A stretch of DNA of 64,000 bases from positions 310,001 through 374,000 of the forward strand of contig NZ_BMDI01000001.1 in NCBI RefSeq assembly GCF_014635705.1. Reading direction: 5' to 3'. Positions 4,245 to 48,673 of the stretch are shown here, in pieces. Position numbers and translations under genes: made by a program. The notes under the pieces are model-generated. The model was given only the letters and a program-made list of their open reading frames with translations, was not told where the DNA came from and searched no databases. Origin of the DNA: Oxalicibacterium faecigallinarum (GTDB lineage: Bacteria; Pseudomonadota; Gammaproteobacteria; Burkholderiales; Burkholderiaceae_D). Position 1 is the first letter of the stretch. Each line of letters starts with the position of its first letter.

Positions 4245-4282
4245 TTTCCTCGGCATAAATCATTTTATTGGAAGTAAAGCAG

Positions 4283-4819
4283 TTGACTATTAAACGAAGC
4301 AAACGCTGGAATGGCGAGATGGATACCTTGTTGCCGGCGTATCTGAACGAGGTGGTGCGCCAGATGACGGCGTATGGTGATCGTGTGAGATTCAGTCTGG
4401 TGGGCAGCAGCGCGCAGCCAGCGTATCAGGTGATCAATTCTTTTGAGAAAAAAATGGCGTTTGATGTGAATCATCATCTGCTGCATCCGTCTGAAGAAGA
4501 GTTTTCGGATACGACCGCAACAAAGATCTTTTCTCTTGATCAGGTGCACGCATTGATTGCGAATGCAGGCATGAAGCAGCAAGCCGCAGCGCGTCCGGTT
4601 CGCGCTACCGTCAGACGTAGTAGCGGAGCAAGTCGCCCCGTAACGGCAGCACAAAAGATGGAGGAGAATCTGGATGCGCAAAAGTACGCATACTTCAAGG
4701 AACACAGCGCAACGCTGCCGGAAGGTATCAGGGAGCATTCGCAGGAAATCTCGCGTCTGATGAAAACAGGATTGACTGCTGAAGCGGCATTTACTCAAGT
4801 GGTCAATGAGTACTTCTGA
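4283..4819 (+). CDS. Hypothetical protein, about 178 residues
   Basis: No recognised family. The protein is basic, without signal peptide or membrane segment, and is mainly predicted helical, with an arginine/alanine-rich middle (around RPVRATVRRSSGASRPV) between two more acidic helical halves. The start is uncertain: TTG 4283 has GGAAG eight bases upstream, TTG 4268 opens the frame, and ATG 4319 follows GGCGAG. A strong terminator follows at 4861, and the gene stands alone between tRNA-Ser and a convergent small gene. Codon use looks like its neighbours, so it is probably a real, taxon-restricted gene. Confidence 0.6.
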   Translation: MTIKRSKRWNGEMDTLLPAYLNEVVRQMTAYGDRVRFSLVGSSAQPAYQVINSFEKKMAFDVNHHLLHPSEEEFSDTTATKIFSLDQVHALIANAGMKQQAAARPVRATVRRSSGASRPVTAAQKMEENLDAQKYAYFKEHSATLPEGIREHSQEISRLMKTGLTAEAAFTQVVNEYF

Positions 4820-4860
4820 TGTTGTGCGCACCGATGCATGACAGCAGATCGCATCAAAAA

Positions 4861-4884
4861 AGCCCGCATCCGCGGGCTTTTTTG
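4861..4884. terminator. Bidirectional terminator between convergent genes
   Basis: AGCCCGC (4861-4867), loop ATCC and GCGGGCT (4872-4878) form a GC-rich stem with A residues before and T residues after. It can end transcription from the + strand gene ending at 4819 and from the - strand gene ending at 4897. Confidence 0.88.
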
Positions 4885-4896
4885 TTCTTGAGACAT

Positions 4897-5088
4897 CTAT
4901 AAACGGTAGATTTTTTCACCCGTTTGCACAATTCTGAATTTGGCATCGGACAGAGGCTCTAGTGAACGACCATCCTTGAGCTTGTAACTTTTGACGCGAG
5001 GAAGCGTGCCCTCATCGTCCTGATAGACCTCAACGTGGTATCCCGCGCCAGTCTTACCTTTTGCATCGAATTTCTCAATCAGATCCAT
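4897..5088 (-). CDS. Small conserved hypothetical protein, about 63 residues
   Basis: Begins with MDLIEKFDAKGKTGAGYHVE and ends with RIVQTGEKIYRL. It is a soluble charged protein that looks like a small beta-sheet domain. The reading frame opens at 5133, but an AAGGAG with six bases to the second of two adjacent ATGs places the start at 5088 (5091 is the alternative). Function unknown. It is transcribed away from flhDC, so its promoter must lie within or next to the long flhDC upstream region. Confidence 0.65.
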   Translation of the reverse strand: MDLIEKFDAKGKTGAGYHVEVYQDDEGTLPRVKSYKLKDGRSLEPLSDAKFRIVQTGEKIYRL

Positions 5089-5290
5089 CATTGTCTCCTT
5101 ATGGCGGTCGCGCACCATTCCCGGGCGAAGCAACCTTTTGCTATGGATAAGCCGGTCACAGTCACGGATTTCTCCGTTTGTTATATGGATCGGGCCACGT
5201 CGAACTTAATTAAGCTGGTGTGGCCTGATCATCTTAGAGGTAAAAAACGAGGATTTCTGAAAAAATCTGAAAATTTTTTTGAGGTGACCC

Positions 5291-5317
5291 TAAAGTTCGC
5301 GTTTTGCCTGCCGTTAA
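5291..5317 (+). promoter_or_regulatory. Sigma-28 (FliA) promoter 1 upstream of flhDC
   Basis: TAAAGTTC (5291-5298), an 11-base spacer and GCCGTTAA (5310-5317). This matches the sigma-28 consensus TAAAGTTT-N11-GCCGATAA at 14 of 16 positions with the exact spacing. It points toward flhDC, about 440 bases upstream of flhD. Confidence 0.75.
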
Positions 5318-5376
5318 GAAATACAGACAACCGGAAATCTTTTTGAAAAAAACTCAAAAATATTTTGTTTGAACCC

Positions 5377-5403
5377 TAAAGTTCTGCAAAACCGTGCCGT
5401 TAA
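5377..5403 (+). promoter_or_regulatory. Sigma-28 (FliA) promoter 2 upstream of flhDC
   Basis: TAAAGTTC (5377-5384), 11 bases and GCCGTTAA (5396-5403), the same two elements as promoter 1, placed 86 bases further downstream with a different spacer. Both copies begin ACCCTAAAGTTC and both follow an AT-rich tract, suggesting a local duplication. Confidence 0.75.
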
Positions 5404-5501
5404 AGAAACAGGATGTGGCGTAAAAGAGAAATTTTTTGCTGTTCGCAGACTGTTTTTTGAAAAATATCGTTAGTAATTAGTAAATAAAATTCGGTCTTTC
5501 T

Positions 5502-5519
5502 GACACTTTTCCAAGTGTC
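5502..5519 (+). repeat. Inverted repeat in flhDC leader
   Basis: GACACTT (5502-5508), TTCC loop and AAGTGTC (5513-5519) form a perfect 7-bp hairpin. A second pair, CGTCTGC (5520-5526) and GCAGACG (5542-5548), follows directly, and a third, CGTTTGT-AAG-ACAAACG, lies at 5606-5622. None has a T-run, so they are not classic terminators. They could be operator sites or leader RNA structures. Confidence 0.5.
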
Positions 5520-5755
5520 CGTCTGCAGTAGGTCAAAACACGCAGACGTAATATCCAAGCGCCTCTCCGCCCTGTTGAAAGCGGGGTGATATCAATGCTG
5601 GTCGACGTTTGTAAGACAAACGCCTACCGGCTCGTTGTCGTCTGTGCTGTATAAAAAAACAGAGCAGAGCCAATTCCTGCTGATCAGCCCCCAATTCAGA
5701 ATGCATTCACGGCGAGCAAATTTGCAGCCGAACATTTTCCGAGTAAGGGCCGATC

Positions 5756-6073
5756 ATGACGAACAACGACATCATTGCTGAAATCCGCGACGCTAATCTG
5801 GGTTACCTGATGCTGGCACAACAAATGATCCGGGCCGACAAGGCAACGGCAATCTTCCGCCTTGGCATCAGCAGCGAAATTGCTGATCTGATCGAAGGCA
5901 TGAACAACGCTCAAATTCTCAAGCTTGCGGGGGCCAACATGATGTTGGCACGATTTCGATTTGACGACGGCGCCATCCTTGGAATGCTGACCAACTACAA
6001 CAAGGATCGCTCGCTCGCGCAATCTCATGCAGCGATTCTGATGGCAGGGCAAGCCATCGAACAGATCGCCTGA
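5756..6073 (+). CDS. flhD: Flagellar transcriptional regulator FlhD
   Basis: One half of the FlhD4C2 activator that switches on class II flagellar operons with sigma-70. 105 residues, all helical, with the conserved N-terminal block NNDIIAEIRDANLGYLMLAQ and the IRADKATAIFRLGIS segment. ATG 5756 is preceded by GAGTAAGGGCCGATC. FlhC follows 50 bases downstream, so both are probably made from one transcript beginning in the long leader. Herminiimonas-type betaproteobacteria and enterics use FlhDC rather than FlrA/FleQ as master regulator, consistent with this gene order. Confidence 0.95.
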   Translation: MTNNDIIAEIRDANLGYLMLAQQMIRADKATAIFRLGISSEIADLIEGMNNAQILKLAGANMMLARFRFDDGAILGMLTNYNKDRSLAQSHAAILMAGQAIEQIA

Positions 6074-6123
6074 GTGTGCATTGAGTTCCGAATTATTCTT
6101 TCCTTACTGACGCGAGCGCAAAA

Positions 6124-6672
6124 ATGGCCAAGAAAAGTGTTGTGACCGAATCTCAGGAAATCCAGTTGGCGATTGAGTTGATCAATCTGGGGGCCAGATT
6201 GCAATTGCTGGAATCGGAAACATCGCTGTCGCGTGAACGTTTGCTGAAGCTGTACAAGGAATTACGTGGTGTGTCGCCCCCAAAAGGTATGCTGCCATTC
6301 TCCACCGACTGGTTTATTACCTGGCAGCCGAACATCCATTCTTCCCTGTTCATGGGAATCCATAAATATCTGGTCGAACATGCGCAGGTATCCGGTATTC
6401 AGGCCGTGATGAAAGCCTATCGCCTGTATCTGGAGCAGGTTGAACCTGGCGCGGATGGCGAACCGATTCTGTCTTTGACCCGCGCCTGGACCTTGGTGCG
6501 CTTTTTCGAGAGTAAAATGTTGTCGACGGCATGCTGCAGTGAATGCGGCGGACATTTCGTCGTGCATCATCTCGATTTGAAAGCAAATTACACCTGCGGT
6601 CTGTGTCACATGCCGTCCAGAGCCGGTAAGACAAAACGTGCCAAACTGGATTCCGCATTGATGGCAGCCTGA
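6124..6672 (+). CDS. flhC: Flagellar transcriptional regulator FlhC
   Basis: Partner of FlhD and main DNA-binding subunit of the master activator. 182 residues. The four cysteines that bind zinc are present near the C-terminus: CCSECGGHF and YTCGLCHMPSRAGK. The family motifs QLAIELINLGARLQLLE and PKGMLPFSTDWFITW are also visible. It lies 50 bases after flhD and 25 bases before the methyltransferase gene, which may share the transcript. Confidence 0.95.
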   Translation: MAKKSVVTESQEIQLAIELINLGARLQLLESETSLSRERLLKLYKELRGVSPPKGMLPFSTDWFITWQPNIHSSLFMGIHKYLVEHAQVSGIQAVMKAYRLYLEQVEPGADGEPILSLTRAWTLVRFFESKMLSTACCSECGGHFVVHHLDLKANYTCGLCHMPSRAGKTKRAKLDSALMAA

Positions 6673-6697: not shown

Positions 6698-7498
6698 GTG
6701 AAAAGAAAGCGGCGTCGTAACCACCAGTCGAGTTCTGTCAAACCTCTCCATCGAGCGCCTGCGATCTTGGCGCTCGTTCTGCAAGTTCTTTCCTTTGTCG
6801 TCACCTTATTGCTGATTGTCTGTCTGGACGCAATCTTTGGCGTTGCTGTGCATGTCGTGCTGGCGGCGACGCTGCAAGGTGGGATTGCCGCTGCACTTTC
6901 GCGCGTATGCAAGCAGGCACCATGGTGGCTGGCGATTCAGTTTTTCTTTCCGATCGTGTTGGTGCTGTTGCTTGGGTTGCATTTGCCGCCAACCTTGTTT
7001 CTTGGCGCGTTTCTGATTTTGCTATTGCTCTACTGGAGCACCTACAGAACACAAGTGCCGTTTTATCCTTCCCGTATGGCGGCCTGGCAGGCAGTCGAGT
7101 CACTTTTGCCATCAACATCGCCCATTCGCATCATTGATATCGGAAGTGGATTGGGCGGCTTGTCGTTGCATCTGGCAAAACAACGTCCCGATGACGTGTT
7201 GCAGGGCATCGAGATTGCGCCATTGCCATGGTTCATTAGCAGGTTGCGCGCTCGGTTTTCTCGCCGTCATGTTGATTTTGTGCGTGGTGATTATCGCGAT
7301 CTCGACTTCGCGCAGTACGATGTCATTTTTGCTTATCTGTCTCCGGCTGCCATGCCGGATTTGTGGCAGAAGGCGCGCGTGGAAATGCGGCCGGGCACAC
7401 TGTTATTGAGCTATGAATTCCAGATACCGGATGTGACGGCCGAAATCGTAATGAGGCCGGAGGAAAAGGGGCCTGAGTTGTACGGATGGAAAATGTAA
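6698..7498 (+). CDS. Membrane-anchored class I SAM-dependent methyltransferase
   Basis: The first about 115 residues are strongly hydrophobic with three or four predicted membrane helices (roughly 25-48, 50-68, 76-108). A cytoplasmic class I methyltransferase fold follows, with motif I IDIGSGLGGLSLHLAK near residue 145, an acidic motif II (GIEIAPLP) and a later FVRGDYRDLDFAQYDVIFAYL block. The GTG start at 6698 precedes a basic KRKRRR tail. The substrate is unknown. It lies between flhC and motA, where enterics have no such gene, so a link to the flagellum is possible but inferred from position only. Confidence 0.7.
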   Translation: MKRKRRRNHQSSSVKPLHRAPAILALVLQVLSFVVTLLLIVCLDAIFGVAVHVVLAATLQGGIAAALSRVCKQAPWWLAIQFFFPIVLVLLLGLHLPPTLFLGAFLILLLLYWSTYRTQVPFYPSRMAAWQAVESLLPSTSPIRIIDIGSGLGGLSLHLAKQRPDDVLQGIEIAPLPWFISRLRARFSRRHVDFVRGDYRDLDFAQYDVIFAYLSPAAMPDLWQKARVEMRPGTLLLSYEFQIPDVTAEIVMRPEEKGPELYGWKM

Positions 7499-7530: not shown

Positions 7531-7557
7531 TCAAGTTCCCCTTATCCTAGCCGTTGA
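7531..7557 (+). promoter_or_regulatory. Sigma-28 (FliA) promoter of motA
   Basis: TCAAGTTC (7531-7538), 11 bases and GCCGTTGA (7550-7557), close to TAAAGTTT-N11-GCCGATAA. It is 121 bases upstream of motA and is a reasonable class III promoter for the motor and chemotaxis genes that follow. Confidence 0.75.
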
Positions 7558-24153: not shown

Positions 24154-24885
24154 ATGTATACAGCGGCCGGAAAATCGGACAGGGATCATCTCGTCGGCGA
24201 ACATGTGCCGCTCGTGAAGAAACTTGCGCATCAGATGAAGGCCAAACTGCCACCCAGCGTCGAAGTCGACGATCTGATTCAGGCAGGCATGATGGGACTG
24301 CTTGACGCAGTCAACCGCTACGAAGAAACACACGGTGCACAGTTCGAGACCTACGCCGTGCAGCGCATCCGTGGTGCGATGCTCGATGAGTTGCGCAGCA
24401 GCGACTGGATGCCGCGCAGCATGCGTCAGAACATGCGCAAGATCGAGATTGCGATGAACACCTTGCAGCAGCAGTTGGGCCGCGCGCCAAACGAGAGCGA
24501 GGTCGCCAAGCAGCTCAAGCTGTCACTCGCCGACTATCAGGATTTGCTCAGTGATGGTGGCGGTCATCAACTGGTCTACTACGAAGACTTTCACGACAGC
24601 GAAGACAACGAGCATTTCCTCGACCGTTATTGCACGGACGAAAGTTCGGACCCGCTGCAGAATCTGATGAACACCGGATTCCGCTCGGCGGTCATCGCTG
24701 CCATCGAAGCCTTGCCAGAGCGCGAAAAAATTCTCATGGGCCTGTATTACGAGCAGGAAATGAATCTGAAGGAAATCGGCGCGATCATGGGCGTGACCGA
24801 ATCACGTGTTTCGCAACTGCATAGTCAGGCCATTGCACGTATGCGTGCCAATTTACGGGAGAAGGCGTGGACTGGGGTAGCCTGA
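24154..24885 (+). CDS. fliA: RNA polymerase sigma factor FliA (sigma-28)
   Basis: Directs transcription of late flagellar and chemotaxis genes from TAAAGTTT-N11-GCCGATAA promoters. 243 residues with sigma region 2 (DLIQAGMMGLLDAVNRYEE, QRIRGAMLDELR), region 3 and region 4 (LPEREKILMGLYYEQEMNLKEIG, ESRVSQLHSQAI). It overlaps the motC start by 19 bases. Its anti-sigma factor flgM is in the same window. Confidence 0.97.
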   Translation: MYTAAGKSDRDHLVGEHVPLVKKLAHQMKAKLPPSVEVDDLIQAGMMGLLDAVNRYEETHGAQFETYAVQRIRGAMLDELRSSDWMPRSMRQNMRKIEIAMNTLQQQLGRAPNESEVAKQLKLSLADYQDLLSDGGGHQLVYYEDFHDSEDNEHFLDRYCTDESSDPLQNLMNTGFRSAVIAAIEALPEREKILMGLYYEQEMNLKEIGAIMGVTESRVSQLHSQAIARMRANLREKAWTGVA

Positions 24886-48300: not shown

Positions 48301-48600
48301 TTATCTCCGTGTGGAGATCAAGTCCTTAACCGTGTCCATCAATCCGTCAGCAACGCTTTCCGCATTGACCTTGAACTGACCGCCAGCAATCGCTGCCTTG
48401 ATCTCATCGACTTTTTTCGCATCGAACACGCCTGCACTACCAGACTGGCTGGTCAATGCTTTGGCTTGTGTCGATAACGTCACATTGTCGGTCGACGTTT
48501 TGCCGGTGGCATCGGTCTTTTCTGCACCTTTGCCAGCGCGGGTTTGCGTCGTTCCAACGCCTATTCCTGCAATTTTCTTGCTAGCGTCATCAATTTTCAC
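48301..48600 (-). CDS. flgM: Anti-sigma-28 factor FlgM
   Basis: 99 residues. It binds FliA and is exported once the hook is complete. The C-terminal FliA-binding region reads FDAKKVDEIKAAIAGGQFKV followed by NAESVADGLMDTVKDLI. The first half is disordered and serine/threonine-rich. A near-perfect sigma-28 promoter lies just upstream, so FliA controls its own inhibitor. Confidence 0.93.
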   Translation of the reverse strand: MKIDDASKKIAGIGVGTTQTRAGKGAEKTDATGKTSTDNVTLSTQAKALTSQSGSAGVFDAKKVDEIKAAIAGGQFKVNAESVADGLMDTVKDLISTRR

Positions 48601-48646: not shown

Positions 48647-48673
48647 CTATCGGCGTGTTCTGGATAAACTTTA
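48647..48673 (-). promoter_or_regulatory. Sigma-28 (FliA) promoter of flgM
   Basis: Read on the - strand: TAAAGTTT (48673-48666), 11 bases and GCCGATAG (48654-48647). It matches consensus at 15 of 16 positions with exact spacing, 47 bases upstream of flgM. Confidence 0.88.

Follow-up and report, generated by a model that had tools for sequence, protein, structure and literature searches.

In Oxalicibacterium faecigallinarum, two tandem promoters for sigma-28 (FliA) probably drive the flagellar master operon flhDC and so close a direct positive loop that is gated by export of the anti-sigma factor FlgM. We observed the sites, their orientation, their conservation and their variation in copy number among relatives, together with the association of the same motif with flgM and the presence of FliA in the genome. 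From these we infer where transcription would start, that the RNA would be delivered to flhDC, when this would happen, and that the effect of FliA on flhDC would be positive.

The duplicated motif and its counterparts in the genome

The window, the whole stretch of 64,000 nucleotides that was analysed, carries two copies of a near-perfect TAAAGTTC-N11-GCCGTTAA on its forward strand, at 5291-5317 and 5377-5403. Both are oriented towards flhD (5756-6073, forward strand; NCBIfam NF002783, 155 bits) and flhC (6124-6672, forward strand; NCBIfam NF009365, 289 bits). The closest named relatives of this FlhC are from Oxalicibacterium flavum (93%) and Herminiimonas contaminans (92%). The original prediction described the arrangement accurately: the two copies are exact, lie 86 bp apart from start to start and have differing 11-bp spacers, and the AT-rich flanks are contained in a 45-nt repeat (5254-5298 and 5340-5384) whose units are 78% identical. 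From the end of the -10 element in the second copy to the flhD ATG there are 352 bp, and the predicted leader of about 350 bases was thus correct as well. Transcripts are predicted to start at about 5325 and about 5409-5411, positions that we placed by a moderately conserved A found 34 nt after the start of the box (0.95 bits in the earlier boxes and 0.62 bits in the last boxes of the loci compared below). In the window, a search of the forward strand from 5403 to flhC returned no terminator-like site that would separate the promoters from the operon they face.

We assessed how unusual the motif is. It did not occur by chance in any of 100 shuffles of the window. In the 3.33 Mb genome, the pattern TAAAGTTYN11GCCGNTAA has two matches, which are the two flhDC boxes, and its reversed control has none. 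A looser pattern, TAAAGN14GCCGWTA, has three matches genome-wide, the third being before flgM at 48673 on the reverse strand; read backwards, it has four (1 forward, 3 reverse), and therefore the looser pattern alone proves nothing. The E. coli consensus, searched through the whole genome with up to three mismatches, was likewise not in excess (14 matches versus 22 in the control). Each flhDC box differs from the E. coli sigma-28 form TAAAGTTT-N11-GCCGATAA at 2 of the 16 specified positions and has the same 11-bp spacing, and these boxes are the best sigma-28 matches that we found in the genome.

The genome encodes FliA, and the same motif is present at flgM, which is an accepted sigma-28 target. 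The fliA gene (24154-24885, forward strand; NF005413, 318 bits) encodes a protein with 51% identity to E. coli FliA and is preceded by flhB, flhA, flhF and a flhG-like gene, all four read by eye; within the window, we found no sigma-28-like site scoring at least 12/15 before this gene group. The gene for the anti-sigma-28 factor, flgM (48301-48600, reverse strand; TIGR03824, 77 bits, and PF04316), has the promoter sequence TAAAGTTT-N11-GCCGATAG at 48647-48673 on the reverse strand. Weaker forms are found before motA, where TCAAGTTC-N11-GCCGTTGA occupies 7531-7557 on the forward strand, and at fliC (identified by eye), where the form is TAAACTTT-N11-TCCGATAA. The motA (7678) and motB genes lie downstream of flhC with one gene in between, a methyltransferase-like protein (6698-7498, forward strand) whose NCBIfam matches are weak and far below the cut-offs. 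On the other side of the boxes, a 64-aa protein (MMDLIEKFDAKGKTGAGYHVEVYQDDEG...; 4897-5091, reverse strand) is divergent from flhDC and an open reading frame of 183 aa occupies 4268-4819 on the forward strand. Both have look-alikes in two related loci (L001 and L003); the first has no Pfam match and the second has no Pfam or NCBIfam match.

Judged by sequence, the flhDC boxes are nearly certainly sigma-28 promoters, and it is likely that they feed flhDC. Two bipartite motifs at a constant spacing could also be binding sites of a transcription factor rather than of sigma-28. We regard this as extremely improbable, however, as both elements and their spacing fit the sigma-28 consensus, the orientation is fixed and the same motif stands at flgM in each of nine related genomes (see below).

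Retention of the boxes among relatives

We compared the flhDC upstream regions of three sets of loci. The first comprises the window and 68 related loci, mostly from Oxalobacteraceae (L001-L068; 69 loci in total), and the second comprises 12 further loci (L069-L080), of which seven are from Methylophilaceae. The third is an order-wide sample of 250 genomes, 86 of which have an FlhC match and from which 74 loci were used (E-value of 2.6e-57 or better); it omits the window's own locus, a second fragment in one genome (G226), weaker FlhC-like matches and one locus (L176). The sets overlap because some genomes of the order-wide sample are also within L001-L080. In the main scan we searched up to 700 bp before flhD for boxes scoring at least 13/15. 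The first set yielded 126 forward sites in 60 loci and one reverse site in one locus, versus 0.40 forward sites in shuffled sequences. In the second set, 11 of the 12 loci carry 13 forward sites and two have a reverse site; the twelfth locus (L077) has almost no upstream sequence. The order-wide sample contains 31 forward sites in 21 loci, 1 reverse site and 53 loci without boxes.

The number of copies varies. At a threshold of 12 and within -560 to -200, a box was found in 61 of the 69 loci of the first set: one copy in 8, two in 39, three in 11 and four in 3. The loci without a box in this range are the seven Herbaspirillum loci and one other (L051). Sites scoring at least 12 were also lacking upstream of flhDC in Burkholderia glumae pBGF3, Cupriavidus metallidurans and Proteus mirabilis, and in E. 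coli K-12 MG1655 no box of at least 12/15 was found in the 700 bp before flhD, where only about 305 bp precede an IS1 insertion. Given that many relatives carry flhDC without boxes, including most of the order-wide sample and 7 of 7 Herbaspirillum, the proposed loop is dispensable. In three Massilia loci (L040, L061 and L064), four tandem boxes are spaced by about 74-78 bp at 284-515 bp before flhD, and this array seems to grow and shrink by duplication of a unit.

Copy numbers of one to four, the units of about 74-78 bp in Massilia and the absence of boxes from Herbaspirillum might suggest that the boxes are relics of tandem duplication without a present function. The pattern of conservation makes this very improbable, because box columns are conserved and the spacers and flanks have diverged. 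Across 61 last and 70 earlier boxes, each column carries 1.8 bits of information in the -35 element and 1.5 bits in the -10 element versus 0.4-0.5 bits in the spacer and 0.1-0.3 bits after the box, and earlier and last copies behave alike. Box columns are kept amid diverged surroundings in both the Oxalobacteraceae and the Methylophilaceae loci. Among the five sequences closest to the window, conservation is 0.83 and 0.62 in the blocks of box 1 and 0.85-0.89 in those of box 2, versus 0.24 between them at 5331-5345. The original prediction suggested that the arrangement had been selected; it called for a scan of flhDC upstream regions in relatives and took a lack of conservation there as evidence against it. 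Since the boxes are kept in relatives, that objection falls away, and they are apparently under selection. We also considered titration of sigma-28 by the one to four sites and rejected it with the argument that the number of sites is too small.

We then asked which genes have sites of this quality. The strict pattern TAAAGTTYN11GCCGWTA has 22 matches in nine relatives and none in the reversed control. By the reading frame downstream, 11 of these are at flhDC (8 of 9 genomes) and 9 at flgM (9 of 9 genomes; flgM was verified by HMM in one genome and by eye in the others), so that 20 of the 22 sites of strict quality in these genomes belong to two regulators. The remaining two precede a YjfB-type motility gene (PF14070) and a gene that is kinase-like by eye. 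A second set of nine genomes, comprising three Herbaspirillum, four Methylophilaceae, one Nitrosospira and one Sulfuriferula, has 11 matches in six genomes versus 3 in the reversed control. Within it, a flgM-like site is present in 2 of the 3 Herbaspirillum genomes and a flhDC site in none. In two Methylotenera loci (L074 and L075), flhB is divergent from flhD, and the intergenic region before flhDC contains a sigma-28 site that faces flhB (an HMM confirmed FlhB at one of these loci). There, the box facing flhB is downstream of the one facing flhD, so that the predicted transcripts overlap head to head.

Elements around the boxes and the flhD leader

Both boxes in the window are preceded by A/T elements on the forward strand, AAATTTTTTTGAGGTGACCC at 5271-5290 and CAAAAATATTTTGTTTGAACCC at 5355-5376, in the position of UP elements. 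The block at 5361-5375 has a conservation of 0.89 among five close relatives. In the wider comparison (61 last and 70 earlier boxes), a AAAAATATTTT-like A/T tract with up to 1.9 bits per column occurs about 21 to 11 nt before the -35 element of earlier and last boxes. We read it as a putative UP element, assuming that the UP consensus is an AAAWWTWTTTTNNNAAANNN-like tract directly upstream of the -35 element. The mean match to this consensus is 11.7 of 14 at 126 flhDC sites versus 9.9 when the same 30 bases are shuffled; the difference is weaker in the order-wide sample (10.6 versus 9.8; 30 sites). The flhDC boxes score higher than ten flgM boxes (6-11, mean 7.8) and than the fliC box of the window's genome (10).

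Between the boxes and flhD lies what is probably the older control region. An operator-like dyad, CGTTTGTAAGACAAACG or TGTAAGA-N6-CCTAC, occupies 5606-5627 on the forward strand (approximately 5604-5630), at about -150 of flhD, and is 0.97-1.00 conserved. Its general form, TGTnRGA-N6-CYKAC overlapping GTTTGTnAGACAAAC, was detected in 54 of 69, 9 of 12 and 20 of 74 loci of the three sets and never in reversed sequence, and its exact forms occur once in the genome. The dyad is followed by AAAATAC-like and CAGAATG-like motifs, and this core is also present in genomes without sigma-28 boxes. Among eight sequences without a box of at least 12 (seven Herbaspirillum and L099), seven have GAAAAATACCG downstream of such a dyad. 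Because the core region is mostly retained where the boxes are absent, we regard the boxes as an upstream addition to an older control region. The dyad resembles what we take to be a response-regulator site of the NarL/FixJ type, and dyad and core together are probably the class I promoter with its operator. A search for a sigma-70 class I promoter returned no sigma-70-like sites in 4800-6200, where 1.5 were expected.

The leader of the sigma-28 transcripts is predicted to occupy 5404-5755 on the forward strand, the first few bases of which precede the predicted start. The original prediction had offered, as an alternative to feedback, that the promoters drive a small RNA from this leader. In this reading, one or more RNAs would terminate short of flhD and act at other places. 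Promoters that are strong and carry UP-like elements would suit abundant RNAs. Terminator-like sites were found in the leaders of 18 of 61 loci versus 5.8 expected, including strong terminator-like hairpins in Undibacterium, and sigma-28-dependent small RNAs are described in E. coli (PMC10578931) and reported in Campylobacter. However, most of the 18 sites have weak T runs and the window's own leader has none. The sequence after the start is also poorly conserved, with 0.14 bits per column at +46 to +79 of the last boxes, and in the five sequences closest to the window the blocks between 5406 and 5555 reach only 0.30-0.61; no Rfam match reached its family gathering score. A conserved small RNA from the leader is thus not supported, and we consider it quite unlikely that these promoters make such small RNAs. 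Two other features of the initial transcript were rejected. One is a 5'-terminal hairpin that looked suggestive by eye, but its mean z-score is no lower than -0.33 at upstream boxes and -0.89 at last boxes. The other is ACAGGATGT, presumably a CsrA site, at the beginning of the box 2 transcript, which by eye is not common to most relatives.

We looked for signs that the leader is transcribed towards flhD. The predicted RNA from 5410 to 5770 folds with a z-score of -4.40. Across 69 loci with a box beyond -275, the segment from -275 to -160, which precedes the operator, has a mean z-score of -1.52 in the sense strand versus -0.88 in the antisense strand (p = 1e-5), and the corresponding values are -0.35 and -0.40 in the seven Herbaspirillum loci. 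In the order-wide sample, the segment scores -1.74 in 13 loci with a box beyond -275 and -0.67 in the other 61, 8 of which have a nearer box. These contrasts between loci with and without boxes are weak (p about 0.03, uncorrected for shared ancestry). Two hairpins on the forward strand of the window covary among five close relatives, hairpin A at 5521-5547 (5 of 8 pairs changed on both sides) and hairpin B at 5568-5588, just upstream of the operator (4 of 8). Their combined 9 of 16 was never reached in 500 shuffles and drops to 1-4 when the structure is slid along the alignment, from which the structure was itself derived. Among 57 loci outside Herbaspirillum, a position scan has a single hairpin peak, at the place of hairpin B and 50-12 nt before the operator. 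Its z-score is -1.82 on the sense strand and -0.92 on the antisense strand, and at the same position six Herbaspirillum loci have a z-score of -0.10. The place of this hairpin is fixed in several lineages and the sequences differ, for example CTACGCC-GCAA-GGGCGTAG in Duganella and CCCCT...AGGGG in Massilia. RNAalifold, applied to six lineage groups, found a good sense structure in four Janthinobacterium loci only (31 pairs, energy of -27.9 versus -12.9 antisense), little in the Duganella and Massilia types and none in Undibacterium and Herbaspirillum; in five loci of the Pseudoduganella type the antisense strand was better (-9.8 versus -6.4). Sense-strand structure in loci with boxes and the covarying hairpins together suggest that the segment is transcribed from upstream towards flhD, and this transcript could instead come from a class I promoter further upstream rather than from sigma-28.

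The long leader is also predicted to make the flhD start slightly less accessible. The predicted probability that the flhD start is unpaired averages 0.356 with the long leader and 0.405 with a 95-nt leader of arbitrary length (61 loci, p = 2e-4). A drop of more than 0.1 is predicted in 15 of the 61 loci and a rise in 1; for the window itself the value falls by 0.08, and for its four closest relatives it changes by no more than 0.06 in either direction. This leans against a simple gain and keeps alive a negative feedback by transcriptional interference, in which strong sigma-28 transcription would cross the class I promoter and operator, displace the regulators bound there and produce a poorly translated mRNA with a long leader, so that late FliA would lower flhDC. 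The boxes precede the conserved operator and core, and the leader is highly structured, both of which are consistent with it. Although the accessibility change points the same way, it is small and depends on the arbitrary comparison leader, and we regard interference as unlikely.

A candidate loop onto the master operon

The preferred reading remains that the sigma-28 promoters sustain flhDC. Before completion of the hook, FlgM would hold FliA and flhDC would be transcribed from its class I promoter only. Two sigma-28 promoters, each with a putative UP element for the alpha subunits of RNA polymerase, would have been added upstream of this region. When the hook-basal body is finished, FlgM would be exported and free FliA would fire the boxes, yielding flhDC mRNA with a long leader. 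FlhDC would then boost FliA, and the circuit from FlhDC through FliA back to flhDC would tie maintenance of the master regulator to finished basal bodies. Since flgM is also fronted by a top-quality site, sigma-28 would strengthen its own inhibitor and the loop would be bounded. The original prediction that sigma-28 feeds back on the master regulator is thus the best reading of conserved sigma-28-type sites that face flhDC; its label of a feed-forward loop was mistaken, as FliA acting on its own upstream regulator constitutes feedback.

Control of flhDC by FliA has a reported precedent. Clarke and Sperandio are said to have described it in 2005 in enterohaemorrhagic E. coli (EHEC), so the statement in the original prediction that enteric feedback uses FliZ rather than FliA was incomplete, and our finding is best called a conserved variant of FliA feedback. 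What the two cases share is an effect of sigma-28 on master operon transcription, here a proposed one; the EHEC case is linked to QseBC and concerns one enteric pathogen, whereas here tandem near-consensus sites with UP-like elements are conserved across many Oxalobacteraceae and Methylophilaceae. Among the matches listed in our search of titles and abstract beginnings in the open-access literature, none described sigma-28 sites upstream of flhDC in Betaproteobacteria.

Other known circuits close at different points. Feedback through FliZ on the level of FlhDC is described for Xenorhabdus and Salmonella (PMC3814329). There too, the amount of FlhDC responds to something made further down the cascade. 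FliZ is a DNA-binding protein that acts directly at flhDC or represses ydiV, whereas here the sigma factor itself would act. We found no FliZ match in the window's genome or in four relatives, in a search that had no positive control. In Salmonella, fliA and flgM are autoregulated by class 3 promoters, so that sigma-28 increases the levels of both itself and FlgM (PMC5809477); that loop closes on fliAZ, whereas the one proposed here would close one tier higher, at flhDC. Among the sigma-28-dependent small RNAs of E. coli, MotR likewise has a sigma-28 promoter at the flhDC locus; this promoter lies in flhC and reads towards motA (PMC10578931), whereas the promoters found here are 5' of flhD.

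The usual picture of flagellar regulation is a one-way cascade that has flhDC on top and side proteins such as FliZ feeding back. The conserved arrangement suggests a feedback from the completed motor base onto the decision whether to build a flagellum. A wider reading, to which we give an even chance, is that in many Oxalobacteraceae and Methylophilaceae the circuit is a closed ring instead of a cascade. One to four UP-assisted promoters would then provide an evolvable gain control, and the flgM arm would have, with rare exceptions, the only other promoters of equal quality. Export of FlgM would latch flhDC on as a memory of a built basal body, and the structured leader would be made mainly from the late promoter. 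Natural variants with 0, 1, 2, 3 and 4 promoter copies, Herbaspirillum being the case with none, would allow loop strength to be compared. If the loop is real, hook completion would be an input to the master switch, and hysteresis and bimodality of motility would be predicted in a large environmental group.
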